Shown here in pieces: positions 23,717 through 31,415 of a stretch of DNA of 64,000 bases (positions are counted from its first letter, which is position 1; the number at the start of each line of letters is the position of its first letter). The notes below the pieces were generated by a model that was not told the DNA's origin, did not search any database, and saw nothing but the letters and a program-made list of their open reading frames with translations. Where the stretch lies: NCBI GenBank assembly GCA_030584065.1, contig CP129489.1, positions 3,574,235-3,638,234 of the forward strand, in the 5' to 3' direction. The position numbers were made by a program, and so were the translations under genes. Source of the stretch: Flavobacteriales bacterium. GTDB lineage: Bacteria; Bacteroidota; Bacteroidia; Flavobacteriales_F; PHOS-HE28.

Positions 23717-24175
23717 ATGGACTACCTGATCGCCTTCCACGACTACTTCTACAAGACCCTCGGCATGGGCAACGCCTTCTACTATGCCCTGGGCTTCATC
23801 GCGGCCATCGCCATCCTGGCGCAATGGCGCCTCTACGAGAAGTGCCGTCAGCCCGGGATCGCGGCCTTCATCCCGGTCTGGAACGTCATCGTCTTCATGC
23901 GCATCGTGGGCCGTCCGGCGAGCGATGCCTGGAAGGTGCTCATCCCCCTCTATGGCCAGCTCTACTTCATCCCCAAGGTGTGGATCGAGGTGGTGCAGTG
24001 CTTCGGCAAGCGCAGCATGCTCGATTACGTGCTCGTGATCGCGCTCAACGGCCTCTACGTGATGAACTTGGCCTTCAATGAGAGCGACCAATACCTCGGC
24101 CCCCTGCGCAATGCCACCTACCTGCCGCCGCCCACGAAGCTGAACAAAGGCGGTGCCCGCCCTCAGTTGGCGTGA
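23717..24175 (+). CDS. Small membrane protein of the DUF5684 type
   Basis: A 152-residue protein with three or four hydrophobic segments and the pattern LYEKCRQPGIAAFIPVWN near residues 38-55. This is a recurring motif of DUF5684 proteins and of N-terminal extensions of some Bacteroidota signal peptidases. No peptidase catalytic Ser/Lys motif is present. Function is unknown. The start MDYLIAFHDYFYKT at 23717 was chosen because the upstream extension lacks similarity and hydrophobicity. A strong bidirectional terminator follows at 24200-24233. Confidence 0.75.
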   Translation: MDYLIAFHDYFYKTLGMGNAFYYALGFIAAIAILAQWRLYEKCRQPGIAAFIPVWNVIVFMRIVGRPASDAWKVLIPLYGQLYFIPKVWIEVVQCFGKRSMLDYVLVIALNGLYVMNLAFNESDQYLGPLRNATYLPPPTKLNKGGARPQLA

Positions 24176-24233: not shown

Positions 24234-24240
24234 TTTCGGG

Positions 24241-24420
24241 TCAGCTCAACAACTCCGCCGCCTTCTTCAACGCTTCTGCCATGCCACCGGGCTCCTTGCC
24301 GCCGGCCGTGGCGAAGTCGGGTTGGCCACCGCCACCGCCCTTGATCAGCGGACCGATCTGCTTGATGATGTCGACCGCCTTGAGACCTGTGGCCTCCATA
24401 GCCTGCTTTCCGAGCGATAC
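24241..24420 (-). pseudogene. Detached 3' end of alaS (about 60 codons)
   Basis: This segment repeats the last 180 bases of the intact alaS at 28680-28859, in the same orientation and including the stop codon. By eye the two differ at roughly 16 positions, mostly third codon positions; the encoded residues differ at only about four (for example QAMEATG for QALEATG). Upstream homology ends abruptly after 24420. With no start and no catalytic core it cannot encode a synthetase. The mainly silent differences suggest both copies evolved under selection before being brought together. It marks one boundary of the accessory segment carrying the two T9SS genes. Confidence 0.85.
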
Positions 24421-24507
24421 TTCCAGCAATTACAGATCGGGGAGCAAGGGTGTAACGCTGCCGGCTTATTCCGCTATCGTTGCATTCCAGTTACATTGAA
24501 CTACCTC

Positions 24508-24587: not shown

Positions 24588-27099
24588 ATGAAGCACCTGA
24601 TACTCGCCATTACGCTGTCCGTGAGCTTCACCCCCCCCCCATTTGCAAGCGCAGCTTGAGCTGCCGGATTACTACGGCGAAGCCTGCAAGGAGATCATCG
24701 GTTTCTGGGAGAACGAAGGCCAACTCAAATACCCGGACGGATCGCCAGTGGACCCGGTCCTCTATTACTCGCAAGGCACCATGCCACGGGCCTATTTCCG
24801 TAAGAACAGCACCATGAGCATCGTAGTTCACGAGCCAACTTCCTTGCTGCCGAATGCGCCGCTGCTCGCGCACCGCCTGGATGTGCGGCCCTATTTGGCA
24901 GCCAATGTGGATCCCATGGCGAACGTAGTGAAGGACCACTACAAGAAGTTCTACCTGCCATGGTGCGGACCGAACGGTGTACATGCACAGGGCTACGACT
25001 GGCTGAAGTACCCGGATGTGTATGACAACATCGACATGGTCTTCTACAGCGGCAGCGGGGGACAGAAGATGGCCTTTTACTGCTGGCCCGGCAGCGACCC
25101 CACCAAGCTGGCACTGCAATTCTGGGGACAGGATAGCCTGAAGGTGGACGTGGCGGGCTTCCTGAAGATCTGGAAGAACGGCACCTGGGTGAAACTGGAT
25201 GAGGCCGTGGCCTATCAGGTAGGTAACAACAACGAGGTGATCCCTCTGGCCTGGAACGCCAGCTATGTGAACCCCAACAACGACGACGTGATCGAGATCG
25301 CCTTCGACAGCTACGACACTTCTCTTCCATTGGTGCTGCAGATCGGCCCCACGCCTGTCTCGGCCTCCTCCGATGCGCAAGGCTTCTGCTGGAACACCTT
25401 CTATGGCGGCAACGAGCGTGAAGAAGTGTTCGGAACAACCACCGATGCCGATGGGAACTTCTACGCCACCGGCTACACGTATAGTGCCCTCACCTTTCCG
25501 AACGTGACCGGATCTTCCATCATCAACAGCACGAATGCTGTGGTGCTGGCGAAGTTCGACCCGTTGCACGATGAGCAATGGACCCTCTTCTACGGCGGCA
25601 GCGATGAGCAGAGCGGCGAGGCCGTGGTGGCTCGTTCACCCAACGAGATCTACATCACCGGGTGGACGGTGGCCACGGATCTGTTCACATGGAATCAATC
25701 CGGGGCGTATTACGATGCAACCGACAACCAATTCACCGCAAAAGGCTTCATCGCAAAGTTCGATGCCTTTGGCACCATCCAGTGGGGCACCTACTTCGGC
25801 GATGGCAATGAGTGGTTGCGTGGCATGGCGCTGGATAGCCAAGGACGCCTGATGGTGGTGGGAACCTGCACCAGCACCTTCCCGGCGCAATCGGCCAGCG
25901 GCGCCACCAGTTGGAGCCAGGCAGGTGGGCGCGACATCCTGCTGGCACGCTTCGCCCCGAACGATGCGCTACAATGGTGTACGGCCTACGGCGGCAGCGG
26001 CGATGACGATGCGCACGATGTCGCCTTTATCCAGGACCGCGCAGTGGTGCTGGGGCAGTCGACGAGCAGCAATTTGCCCATGGTGAACGGAGGCAGTGGC
26101 TCCTTCAACCAGACCAGCTCGGGTGGGCAGACCGATATGAACCTGCTCGCCTTCAACGGCAGCGGCACCTGTACTTGGGCCACCTACCTAGGCGGTAGCG
26201 GCATCGATGAGCCAGGCTTCAATGGGTTGTGCATCACGGAGAATGGCGATATCGCGGTCGGGGGCGTCAGCTACAGCACCAACATGCCTACACAGAATGC
26301 CAGTGGGTTCTATCAAGCCGCAGGCAGCACGAACGGCGCGGGCTACCTGGCCCGCTTCAACGGCGGCACACGCGCGCTCAACTGGGCCACGCACATCGGC
26401 GGGGCGCAGCTCACGCGCCTCGAGGGTGTGGAGCAACTGGGCAACAAGCTCTTCGCCTTCGGTTTCAGCAACGATGGAGGGTTGAGCAACGTGCAGACGA
26501 ATGGACTGTATACCCAAGGCTTCAACCCCGGCCAAGCCGCTGCTCAGAACGGTAAGGACGCGATCTTGATGGCCTTCGATGCCAACACCGCTCTGGCTTA
26601 CAGCACCTACGTGGGCGGCACCGAAGGCGGCATCGGCGAAGCCATCCGGCACATGGCCTACCACGATGGCACCGCCTACTTCGCTGGGGTCACCAGCCCC
26701 AGCTTCCCCTTTGTGGACGATTTCCCCTTGCACGACCCCGGCCCGCCCGCCTACTTCAAAGGCAGCTGGCTGGCCGGTGATTTCTGGATGGATTGGTTCC
26801 TCGGCGCGCTTTGCACGGGCAGCTTCACCGGGGCGGTGGGGATCGCTGAATGGACCGGCGGCGATGGCCTTGCGGTGGTGCCGATCGGCGGTGGCCAATA
26901 TCAAGTCGTTATGCCTTTGGGCACGGTATACCGCTTACGCGTGGTGGATGCGGTTGGGCGTGAGGTGCGATCGTTTTCGCCGGTGGTGACTTCCGGCAAC
27001 ACCATCCTTGACTTCCAGCCCTATGCGGATGGACTCTACGTAGTGCAGGTGCTGGAGCCGACAGGATCCCGAAGCGTACAACTTGTACATACGCGCTGA
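24588..27099 (+). CDS. T9SS cargo protein with SBBP repeats, start out of frame at a poly-C tract
   Basis: The main frame runs 24643-27099 (TTG start, 818 residues). It carries an N-terminal DUF7948-like region (YPDVYDNIDMVFYSGSGG), about seven SBBP-type repeats (YGGSGDDDAHDVAF and similar), and a C-terminal T9SS type A sorting domain (YADGLYVVQVLEP). A signal-peptide start, MKHLILAITLSVSFT at 24588, lies in another frame and stops at 24657-24659. Between them is a run of ten C. With nine C (or twelve) the signal peptide reads straight into ...HLQAQLELPDYYGE. As sequenced the gene is therefore off, unless the TTG start is used without a signal peptide. Sequencing error in the homopolymer is the alternative. 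Confidence 0.8.
24631..24640 (+). repeat. Poly-C tract (10 C) in the signal-peptide region
   Basis: Ten consecutive C between A24630 and A24641, the longest homopolymer I noticed in the window. It sits in the signal-peptide coding region of a surface protein and decides its reading frame. Confidence 0.9.
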
Positions 27100-27102
27100 G
27101 CC

Positions 27103-28491
27103 ATGCGTAGGCTTGCATGGCTAGGCCTATGCGCCTGTGCGCCGTTGTGCGCCCAGCATTGGGTGGATACTGGGATGCCTGGCTACAATCCGACCAGCCT
27201 CATCAAGGTATTGGTTGACCAAACCGAGGATCGCTTGTTGGTGGTTGGGTACACGACTGTCACGGGCGAGAACAGCGAACAATCGATAGTACGCTACAAG
27301 GATGGTGCATGGGATACGCTTGGCACCTTCTACGGTGGCCTATCTGATGCGGAGCGGTTTGGAGACACCTTGGTCGTTGCAGGTACAAGCAACCTGGACT
27401 TCGTAAACGAAATCCCAATAGAAGGAGCAGCTGCCCACTATGATGGCGCTTGGCACCCCTACGGCAGCTTTGATCTCGGCATCCGCAACCTCAAGATCAT
27501 CAACGGTGAACTCTACGCCATCGGCGGTTTCGAGTACGTAGATGGCCAGCTCTGCAACGGCATCGCCAAGCGTGTGGGTGGGGTCTGGCAGTGTTTCGAT
27601 CCGCCTCCGCAAACGCAAACCGGTGGCGGCCCAGACTTCTACGATGCCGAGTGGTACCAAGGTGAGCTCTATGCCTGCGGAAACTTCAGCTTCAATGCGA
27701 ATGGCGAGAACGACATCATCGCCTTCGATGGCTCGGGCTGGTATGCACCTGGTGGAGGTTTGAGCGATGGCTTTGCCAATGGCCGTTGCCTCACGGTCTA
27801 TCAAGATGAGCTCTACTTCGGCGGCGGCTTCACGGTGGCCGATGGCAACGCGGGCAATTGCATCATGAAATGGAACGGCACAGAGTGGAGCGGCCTCAAT
27901 GGCGATCTGCAGGGCGTATTCAACGACAACCTCACCCGCGCCACCGCCCTGAGCTTCCTGCACCACGACGGCAAATTGCTGGTGGGTGGCGAGTTCAGCT
28001 ACGTGGCGGGCAACCAGGCCAACCGCTTCGCCGTGTGGGACGGCACCAAGTGGTGCGGCTACAGCGACACCTTCGGGCCCACCAGCTTCTGCCAGTCCCT
28101 GGCCTTATATCACGATACGGTCTTTGCCGCTTGCGGCTTCGAGCTCAACGGCCAGCCCATCAATCAGGTGATCAAGTGGGTGGGCGATGCAGGCTTCGAA
28201 GGGGAATGGTGCAACTCACCGATCGGCGTTGAAGAAAGGTCTTCCGCGCAAGGCCTCTCGGTAGCTGCCTTGGGTGACGGCGCTTATCAACTGATGGTTC
28301 CAGCGGGAACCGCCATCGCACAGGTACGCCTCTTCGATCCGGCCGGTAGGATGGTGAAAGACCTGGGTTCCGCGATGCCCGGCGTTGGACGATTGCTGTT
28401 CGACCTCTCGACGCAAGCCGAGGGTCTTTACGTGTTGCAGGTGAACGTTGAAGGCATGCCACATGTCGTGCGCTTCAACCATAGCCACTGA
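27103..28491 (+). CDS. T9SS cargo protein with Kelch/delta-60-like repeats
   Basis: A 462-residue secreted protein with signal peptide MRRLAWLGLCACAPLCAQ. Six or seven blade-like repeats follow, of the form LYAIGGFEYVDGQLCNGIAK and LYFGGGFTVADGNAGNCIMKW, where each short strand is followed by a tryptophan-containing turn. The C-terminal ~85 residues are a T9SS type A sorting domain ending YVLQVNVEGMPHVVRF. It starts 3 bases after the stop of the SBBP gene, so the two are cotranscribed. The repeat type resembles the middle of the 3003-4829 protein. Ligand or role unknown; surface exposure is predicted. Confidence 0.82.
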   Translation: MRRLAWLGLCACAPLCAQHWVDTGMPGYNPTSLIKVLVDQTEDRLLVVGYTTVTGENSEQSIVRYKDGAWDTLGTFYGGLSDAERFGDTLVVAGTSNLDFVNEIPIEGAAAHYDGAWHPYGSFDLGIRNLKIINGELYAIGGFEYVDGQLCNGIAKRVGGVWQCFDPPPQTQTGGGPDFYDAEWYQGELYACGNFSFNANGENDIIAFDGSGWYAPGGGLSDGFANGRCLTVYQDELYFGGGFTVADGNAGNCIMKWNGTEWSGLNGDLQGVFNDNLTRATALSFLHHDGKLLVGGEFSYVAGNQANRFAVWDGTKWCGYSDTFGPTSFCQSLALYHDTVFAACGFELNGQPINQVIKWVGDAGFEGEWCNSPIGVEERSSAQGLSVAALGDGAYQLMVPAGTAIAQVRLFDPAGRMVKDLGSAMPGVGRLLFDLSTQAEGLYVLQVNVEGMPHVVRFNHSH

Positions 28492-28679
28492 CCAATGTGG
28501 GGCTAGAAAACACCTTTATGGTCGAGCTCAATGAGCCTCAGCACCGTTAGCGCAGGCGCGCGTTAGCCGCCGAAGCGTTTGGAGCGAGTCGTGGCAAAGT
28601 AGACCCTCTCTTACCCTGCGACCTGAACTACGGCACTGTGCACCAGCGCGGCCAGTACAGGATGCGGCGTGCTCATGGC

Positions 28680-31286
28680 TCAGCTCAGCAACTCCGCCGC
28701 CTTCTTCAACGCATCGGCCATGCCGCCGGGCTCCTTGCCGCCGGCCGTGGCGAAGTCCGGTTGGCCACCGCCGCCGCCCTTGATCAGCGGACCGATCTGC
28801 TTGATGATGTCGACGGCCTTGAGGCCCGTGGCTTCCAGCGCTTGCTTGCCCAGGGATACCGCGAGCAGCGGCTTGCCGTCGATCACGGAGCCGGCCACGA
28901 AGGCGAGGTCGGCGTGCTGTTCGCGCAGTGTGAAGCCGAGGTCCTTCAGGCCCTGGGCATCGAGGTCGAGCTGTTCCACCAGCACCTTCACGCCCTTGCT
29001 GTTGGCCGTGGCCTTGGCGGGGATGGCGGTGGCATAACGCTTCACCTTCTCGCGGGCCGCCTTCTCCAGCTCCTTGGTGAGCGCGGTGTTCTGCTCCGCG
29101 AGCTTCTGCACGGCGGCCACCACATCGGCGGGGTTCTTCAGCAGGGCCTCGATGGCCTCCAGCTTCGCGAGCTTCTCGTTGATCATGCGCTCGGCCTCCA
29201 GGCTGGTGATGGCCTCGATGCGGCGGATGCCTGCGGCCAGTGCGCTCTCGCTCACGATCCGGAAGGGACCGATCACGCCGGTGCGCGGCACGTGCGTACC
29301 ACCGCAGAGCTCGATGCTGGGGCCGAACTTCACCACCCGCACGTTGTCACCGTACTTCTCGCCGAAGAGCGCCATGGCGCCCATGGCCTTCGCCTCGGCG
29401 ATGGGCACGTTGCGCTTGTCCTCGAACACGATGTCATCCGTGATCATCGCGTTCACCTCGCGCTCGATGGTGGACAGCTCCTCGGGCGTCACCTTGGCGA
29501 AGTGGCTGATGTCGAAGCGCAGGCGGTCGGGCGCCACCAAAGAACCCTTCTGCTCTACGTGCGTGCCCAGGTGCTTGCGCAGGGCGTGGTGCAACAGGTG
29601 CGTGGCGGTGTGGTTGCGCGCGGTGAGGCCGCGGCGCTGCGTGTTCACCTGCGCGGTGAGCGGCTGGGTCACATCCTTCGGCAGCTCCTTGGTGAAGTGC
29701 ACGATCAGCTGGTTCTCGCGCTTGGTGTCGATCACTTCGACCTGATCGGCACCTTGCACCAACCAGCCCTGGTCGCCCACCTGGCCGCCGCCTTCCGCAT
29801 AGAAGGGCGTGCGGTCGAGCACGAGCTGGAACTGGTCGCCGCCCTTGCCGGAGACCTTGCGGTAGCGCAGGATGCGGGCCTCGGTGCCGAGTTCGTCATA
29901 GCCGATGAAGGCGGTCTCGCCTTTGCCGAGCTCCACCCAATCTCCGGTGGTGACGGCCGTGGCGGCGCGGGAGCGTTCCTTCTGCTTCTGCAGCTCCGCC
30001 TCGAAGCCTTTCATGTCCACGCTCATCCCCTGCTCGCGCGCCATGAGCTGCGTGAGGTCGATGGGGAAGCCGTAGGTGTCGAAGAGCTCGAAGGCACGGT
30101 CGCCAGCGAGCGTCTCCTTCGACTCCGCAAGCGCTTGTTCGAGACGCTTCGTTCCTTGCTCCAGGGTGCGGAGGAAGGCCTTCTCCTCTTCCTGCATCAC
30201 GCTCTCCACCAGCTGCTGCTGCTTGCGCAGTTCGGGGAACTGGTCGCCCATCTGCCCGGCCAAGGTCCTCACCAGCTCGTGCATGAAGGGCTCATTGAAG
30301 CCGAGGAAGCTGTAGCCGTAGCGCACGGCCCTCCGCAGAATGCGGCGGATCACATAACCCGCGCCGGTGTTGCTGGGCAGCTGCCCGTCGGCGATGGCGA
30401 AGCTGATGGCACGCAGGTGGTCGGCGCACACACGCATGGCGATGTCGGCCTTCTCCTCTGCACCGTAGGTCTTGCCGCTCCGTTTCGCGATGGCCTGGAT
30501 CAGCGGCTGGAACACATCCGTGTCATAGTTGCTGCGCTTGCCTTGCAGCACCATGCACAGGCGCTCGAAGCCCATGCCGGTGTCCACGTGCTGGGCGGGC
30601 AATGTCACGAGCGAACCATCGGCCTTGCGCTCGAACTGCATGAACACGTTGTTCCAGATCTCGATCACCTGCGGGTGATCGTTGTTCACCAGCTCGCGGC
30701 CGGGCTTCTGCGCCTTTTCCTCGGCGGTGCGCACATCCACGTGGATCTCGGTGCACGGCCCGCAGGGACCGGTGTCGCCCATCTCCCAGAAGTTGTCCTT
30801 GCGGCTGAAGGGCAGGATGCGCTCGGCGGGCAGGTACTGCTTCCACAGGTCGCGCGTCTCCTCATCGGCGGGCAGGCCGTCCTTCTCATCGCCGCCGAAG
30901 TAGGTCACGTAGATGTCGGCCGTGTTGATCCTGTACTCGTCCACCAGCAGTTCCCAGGCCCACTGGATCGCCTCCTTCTTGAAGTAGTCCCCGAAGCTCC
31001 AGTTGCCGAGCATCTCGAACATCGTGTGGTGGTACGTGTCGATGCCCACCTCCTCCAGGTCGTTATGCTTGCCCGAGACGCGCAGGCACTTCTGCGTGTC
31101 GGCGATGCGTTTGTGCTTGGCCTCGCGGTTGCCCAGGAAGAGGTCCTTGAACTGGTTCATGCCCGCGTTGGTGAACATCAACGTGGGGTCGTCCTTCACC
31201 ACCATGGGCGCGCTGGGCACGATGGTGTGGCCGTGCTTGGCGAAATGGTCGAGGAACTTCTGGCGGATCTGCTGGCTGGTGAGCAT
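28680..31286 (-). CDS. alaS: Alanyl-tRNA synthetase
   Basis: An 868-residue synthetase of normal length. The class II core opens with LTSQQIRQKFLDHFAKHGH and contains FTNAGMNQFKDLFLG. The editing domain has RNHTATHLLHHALRKHLG and the zinc-binding CGGTHVPRTG. The C-terminal DHHA1-like domain ends GGGGGQPDFATAGGK. It charges tRNA-Ala and clears mischarged Ser/Gly. The start at 31286 (MLTSQQIRQ) was chosen over an upstream extension because it follows a TACCTTCG promoter element and matches the family. Its last 180 bases are duplicated at 24241-24420. Confidence 0.96.
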   Translation of the reverse strand: MLTSQQIRQKFLDHFAKHGHTIVPSAPMVVKDDPTLMFTNAGMNQFKDLFLGNREAKHKRIADTQKCLRVSGKHNDLEEVGIDTYHHTMFEMLGNWSFGDYFKKEAIQWAWELLVDEYRINTADIYVTYFGGDEKDGLPADEETRDLWKQYLPAERILPFSRKDNFWEMGDTGPCGPCTEIHVDVRTAEEKAQKPGRELVNNDHPQVIEIWNNVFMQFERKADGSLVTLPAQHVDTGMGFERLCMVLQGKRSNYDTDVFQPLIQAIAKRSGKTYGAEEKADIAMRVCADHLRAISFAIADGQLPSNTGAGYVIRRILRRAVRYGYSFLGFNEPFMHELVRTLAGQMGDQFPELRKQQQLVESVMQEEEKAFLRTLEQGTKRLEQALAESKETLAGDRAFELFDTYGFPIDLTQLMAREQGMSVDMKGFEAELQKQKERSRAATAVTTGDWVELGKGETAFIGYDELGTEARILRYRKVSGKGGDQFQLVLDRTPFYAEGGGQVGDQGWLVQGADQVEVIDTKRENQLIVHFTKELPKDVTQPLTAQVNTQRRGLTARNHTATHLLHHALRKHLGTHVEQKGSLVAPDRLRFDISHFAKVTPEELSTIEREVNAMITDDIVFEDKRNVPIAEAKAMGAMALFGEKYGDNVRVVKFGPSIELCGGTHVPRTGVIGPFRIVSESALAAGIRRIEAITSLEAERMINEKLAKLEAIEALLKNPADVVAAVQKLAEQNTALTKELEKAAREKVKRYATAIPAKATANSKGVKVLVEQLDLDAQGLKDLGFTLREQHADLAFVAGSVIDGKPLLAVSLGKQALEATGLKAVDIIKQIGPLIKGGGGGQPDFATAGGKEPGGMADALKKAAELLS

Positions 31287-31291
31287 GGTCT

Positions 31292-31305
31292 GGGCGAAAA
31301 CGCCC
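31292..31305 (-). other. Hairpin in the alaS leader
   Basis: GGGCG-TTTT-CGCCC on the minus strand forms a 5-bp stem between the predicted transcription start and the alaS start codon, 5 bases before the ATG. Confidence 0.35.
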
Positions 31306-31306
31306 G

Positions 31307-31314
31307 CGAAGGTA
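31307..31314 (-). promoter_or_regulatory. -7 promoter element for alaS
   Basis: TACCTTCG on the minus strand ends 20 bases before the alaS start at 31286. Transcription would begin a few bases downstream, within the short hairpin-containing leader. Confidence 0.5.
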
Positions 31315-31415
31315 CCGAGGCGCGCCAACCGGTGGAGGTTGGGGGCCACGGCTCGGATCAACAGGCTTTAACAGCCGGGTGGGGCGGCTGCGGCGGGCTG
31401 GTGGAGGTGGGGGGC

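Follow-up and report, generated by a model that had tools for sequence, protein, structure and literature searches.

A ten-C tract in a DUF7948 gene and a probable repertoire of repeat-switched secreted surface proteins in an uncultured Flavobacteriales genus

The tract, its gene and the alaS locus

The window, meaning the whole 64-kb stretch of DNA that was analysed, lies in G000, a single-contig 3.9-Mb genome. On its forward strand, an ATG and signal peptide (MKHLILAITLSVSFT, 24588-24630) lead into a tract of ten C (24631-24640), which is followed by a long open frame (24643-27099) for a mature protein with a DUF7948 domain, beta-propeller-like repeats and a C-terminal T9SS-like tail. The signal peptide was judged without a predictor; inspection of the C9 frame shows it clearly, and homologues have signal peptides ending in ...AQ. 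The tract begins 43 nt past the first base of the ATG, and its unit is not divisible by three. As assembled, the frame from ATG 24588 (MKHLILAITLSVSFTPPPFASAA) reads through MKHLILAITLSVSFT, the ten C and PPPFASAA to a stop codon at 24657-24659, giving a 23-aa product, and the gene is OFF. With nine or twelve C the signal peptide and the mature protein share one frame, and the gene is intact in one tract-set frame, with predicted products of 836 aa at C9 and 76 aa at C11. An earlier sequence-only reading had placed the tract and the stop at exactly these positions and had stated that one C fewer restores the long frame, and both statements proved correct. Long runs of C are under-represented in the window, which has five matches to seven C (four of them the C10 tract itself) against 27.5 expected. 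Eleven simple repeats occur in the 64 kb, ten with a unit of 3 or 6, and the C10 tract is the sole frame-shifter.

The single firm domain of the window protein (P0001) is DUF7948 (PF25778; E 4e-17, 63.3 bits against a cut-off of 27). The same reading had expected some 800 further residues with SBBP repeats and a sorting domain. The length held, with 818 further codons open, whereas the domain assignments were reached only below cut-off: the TIGR04183 sorting domain scored 14.5 against 23 bits, the domain scan gave no match to PF06739 (SBBP), and the SBBP signal is confined to a sub-cut-off match to NF047494, a leptospiral SBBP lipoprotein family. Four scanned homologues also matched PF18962, all below cut-off. 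The window protein is likely T9SS cargo, with the reservation that its sorting domain falls below cut-off. G000 as a whole has at least 150 T9SS sorting-domain matches (150 of 232 candidates scored). The good promoter claimed for the gene was not recovered, as a scan for sigma-70-type promoters found none there, with Bacteroidota-type promoters outside its coverage.

The window gene and its neighbour occupy a segment of about 4.4 kb bounded by alaS and by a 191-nt duplicate of its 3' end. The duplicate (24238-24428, reverse strand; 90% identical to 28677-28867) forms the left edge, and the 3' end of alaS (alanine-tRNA ligase, 28680-31361, reverse strand) forms the right. This flanking duplicate supports the earlier placement of the tract in accessory DNA. 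The segment looks as if it was acquired at alaS, with the empty site not shown: in G098, a second genome of the same species, the left-flank contig stops near window position 24048, and a search of that assembly did not turn up the alaS end. Three nt downstream of the window gene lies a gene for a DUF5122/delta-60 repeat protein with a sub-threshold T9SS tail (27103-28491, forward strand). We infer that the two genes are probably co-transcribed, and by further inference the downstream gene, which encodes a beta-propeller secreted protein, may be co-switched via polarity.

Tract length in paralogues and in a second family

The nearest paralogue in G000 (G000:C1:2658824-2661290) shares 43% identity with the window gene across most of its length and carries C11 at the identical signal-peptide position, with the DNA directly flanking the two tracts nearly the same. 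In G098 the paralogue tract is C9 and in frame. Over 2.9 kb the two paralogue sequences differ by 9 SNPs and by no indel except the tract. A second frameshift lies about 330 nt downstream in both strains (L063 at about 1825, G000:C1:2659153; L103 in G098), where there is one extra base relative to the window gene and no homopolymer. Because both strains share this frameshift, the paralogue whose tract varies may be a pseudogene, and its tract length would then be free to drift. Near G000:C1:3566900 lies a third family member, which starts with ATGCAGAACGCAGAAC... and contains a heptamer in 5.6 copies; it is out of frame. The window gene itself was looked for in G098, which is 83% complete, and was not found, leaving no second allele.

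A second family of large secreted proteins, family B, behaves similarly. At G000:C1:3053464 (MRTRRLWLAALAAAFIA...) the tract is CCT plus C11 and the gene is OFF in G000; in G098 it is C10 and ON, the tract there sitting 128 nt from a contig end. Seven more family-B genes in five other genomes have C9-C13 in their signal peptides, and all are out of frame as assembled, which makes one in nine ON. Repeat number thus differs at two loci, the paralogue and family B, between two genomes of one species. As a control, other comparable C9 tracts had the same length in G000 and G098 in 10 of 10 cases, and the length difference is therefore particular to the signal-peptide tracts, with the caveat that the variable tracts exceed the constant ones by one or two bases.

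Other C runs in G000 are recorded here for completeness. The longest found is a C17 at G000:C1:1556045-1556061 (L146). A C10 at L144 2316-2325 (G000:C1:124815) lies some 120 codons downstream of the start of an open frame of 913 aa that has a signal peptide, and it is in frame as assembled. A tandem lipoprotein pair (G000:C1:242738 and 243698, L143) has C9 or C10 after the lipobox cysteine; the C9 copy is in frame and the C10 copy, a fragment, is out of frame. This pair was set aside, as one copy is a fragment.

Frame-shifting repeats across the genus

Genus-wide loci were located with the pattern ATGA-N15-45-C9, which is noisy and served only to find loci because several poly-C clusters are GC-rich junk beside scaffold gaps. 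Such poly-C/poly-G clusters, several of them beside gaps, occur at G098:C226:50592-50674, C105:2692-2739 and C129:3950-3995 and at L276 in G002; they look like assembly junk that inflates tract counts. The named relatives from the same genus are the Flavobacteriales bacterium MAGs SJ6 and Gw_SlAct_bin_418, and the latter's name alone suggests an activated-sludge or water sample. Scanning with P0001 turned up no relative.

Among the P0001-like DUF7948 genes, which we call family A, 23 of 44 carry a repeat within the 260 nt before the DUF7948 domain, or 21 of 41 without near-copies. The repeats comprise C9-C22, G18, (CT)10-21, (GAAG)8, five kinds of heptamer and two octamers; (TCGA)3 is a weak member of the 21, and one further P0001-like gene outside these counts carries (AGAA)9. 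None of the 21 has a unit divisible by three, as against 19 of 23 repeats elsewhere in the loci and the window (p 6e-9). Classical DUF7948 genes have a 5' repeat in 3 of 30 cases, all weak, so that family A is enriched by comparison (Fisher p 3e-4), and of 40 further T9SS cargo genes in G000, scanned over wider zones, 2 carry repeats. Both p-values are rough, since related sequences were treated as independent.

Most of the 7- and 8-base repeats begin at the ATG or within two codons of it, and a change in their unit count shifts the signal peptide in or out of frame. A tree of the 44 members requires at least 15 changes of repeat state. From such frequent gain and replacement of repeat types we infer that random ON/OFF expression of these proteins is probably favoured by selection. 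The weak point is that most tracts are OFF as assembled, which fits decay too; in family A, four of about 21 tract genes are ON. L037 and L040, two family-A members without a repeat, do not read in frame from their ATG, possibly through decay after tract loss.

Proposed slipped-strand switching, its alternatives and known systems

We consider slipped-strand mispairing at the tract, leading to phase variation of the window gene, to be very probably the best explanation, on sequence evidence alone. The C10 tract would be a contingency locus at which replication slippage adds or removes C's; with C9 or C12 the DUF7948 surface or secreted protein of 818 residues would be made together with its signal peptide (ON), and C10 and C11 would yield short abortive peptides (OFF). 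For the window gene, slippage as the cause, reversible switching and surface location are inferred, without read data. The tract looks like a member of a genus-wide switch set because relatives carry many frame-shifting repeats there; this putative set would take in about half of family A together with family B, the repeats lying within the signal peptide or immediately ahead of it. Phase variation had been proposed at the outset, and the proposal gains support from the C11 and C9 alleles of the paralogue within one species and from the non-triplet repeats in about half of the subfamily. It also withstands the refuting condition set at the outset, relatives fixed in frame without a tract.

The tenth C could instead be an assembly error, the true tract being C9 and the gene simply on. 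Most of the genomes are draft assemblies, homopolymers of ten or more bases are error-prone and several homologues do have C9. We nevertheless regard such an error as unlikely: two independent assemblies give the same length for each of the control C9 tracts, the tracts of the paralogue and of family B are likewise off their in-frame length, and the switch reading does not hinge on the exact count of C. A pseudogene with the tract as an incidental hot spot for an inactivating indel would also account for a gene that is OFF as assembled, and the paralogue's second frameshift and the tractless, out-of-frame L037 and L040 lend it some weight. Against this, the remaining 818 codons of the window gene are open, about eleven kinds of non-triplet repeat recur at one spot and are renewed on the tree, and such repeats hardly occur in other parts of these loci, which together leave decay a small chance only. 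Homopolymers can, as a general matter, promote transcriptional or ribosomal slippage, by which a C10 gene would make some full-length protein with its DNA unchanged. This is very improbable here, given that the homologues' 4-, 7- and 8-base repeats in the same place are without obvious support for slippage by polymerase or ribosome, and that tract lengths differ in the DNA between strains.

The slipped-strand reading has precedents that share some of its elements. The phase-variable capsule O-acetyltransferase gene neuO of E. coli K1 has heptanucleotide repeats at its 5' end that set the frame. Family A likewise has 5' repeats controlling frame, heptamers among them, whereas neuO encodes a phage-borne enzyme and family A secreted surface proteins. 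To our knowledge, randomly flipping repeat switches of surface proteins have mainly been described in host-dwelling bacteria. The Neisseria opa genes offer another likeness, a non-triplet repeat within the signal-peptide code of a surface-protein family, as CTCTT repeats in the leader-peptide code set the frame by slipped-strand mispairing (PMC3960869). There, however, one pentamer serves all genes and the products are outer-membrane opacity proteins, whereas family A uses poly-C/G and 2-, 4-, 7- and 8-base units for DUF7948/T9SS-like proteins in a genus not known to be pathogenic. A variable poly-C also controls the Neisseria surface protein Opc (PMC3960869), but that tract lies in the promoter and alters transcription, unlike the coding tract of the window gene. 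Within the same phylum, Bacteroides switches surface features at random by DNA inversion (PMC11868660), through invertases and not through a repeat-driven change of reading frame.

A 2025 review leaves open why phase-variable-rich genomes seem confined to pathogens, or whether they only appear so through database bias (PMC11868660), and an earlier survey, as far as its citation in PMC4060949 conveys, linked long repeats with reliance on a eukaryotic host. A search of open-access literature found no account of phase variation through repeats, either for this group or for T9SS cargo, and this absence is weak evidence. We think it likely that, in this uncultured Flavobacteriales genus, secreted surface proteins form a phase-variable repertoire driven by repeats at multiple loci, in which units of 1, 2, 4, 7 and 8 bases have been acquired and exchanged again and again at the start of the genes of one family. 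We can only guess at its use, and infer that random exposure of surface proteins might serve as bet-hedging against phage, grazer or attachment pressure. A repeat-switched secreted-protein family in such organisms makes the question of pathogen restriction testable through tract lengths in metagenome reads, and family A offers naturally occurring parallel gains, with distinct repeat types serving a single gene family. If it is true, the multi-locus repertoire would be a repeat-based Bacteroidota counterpart to the inversion switches of gut species.
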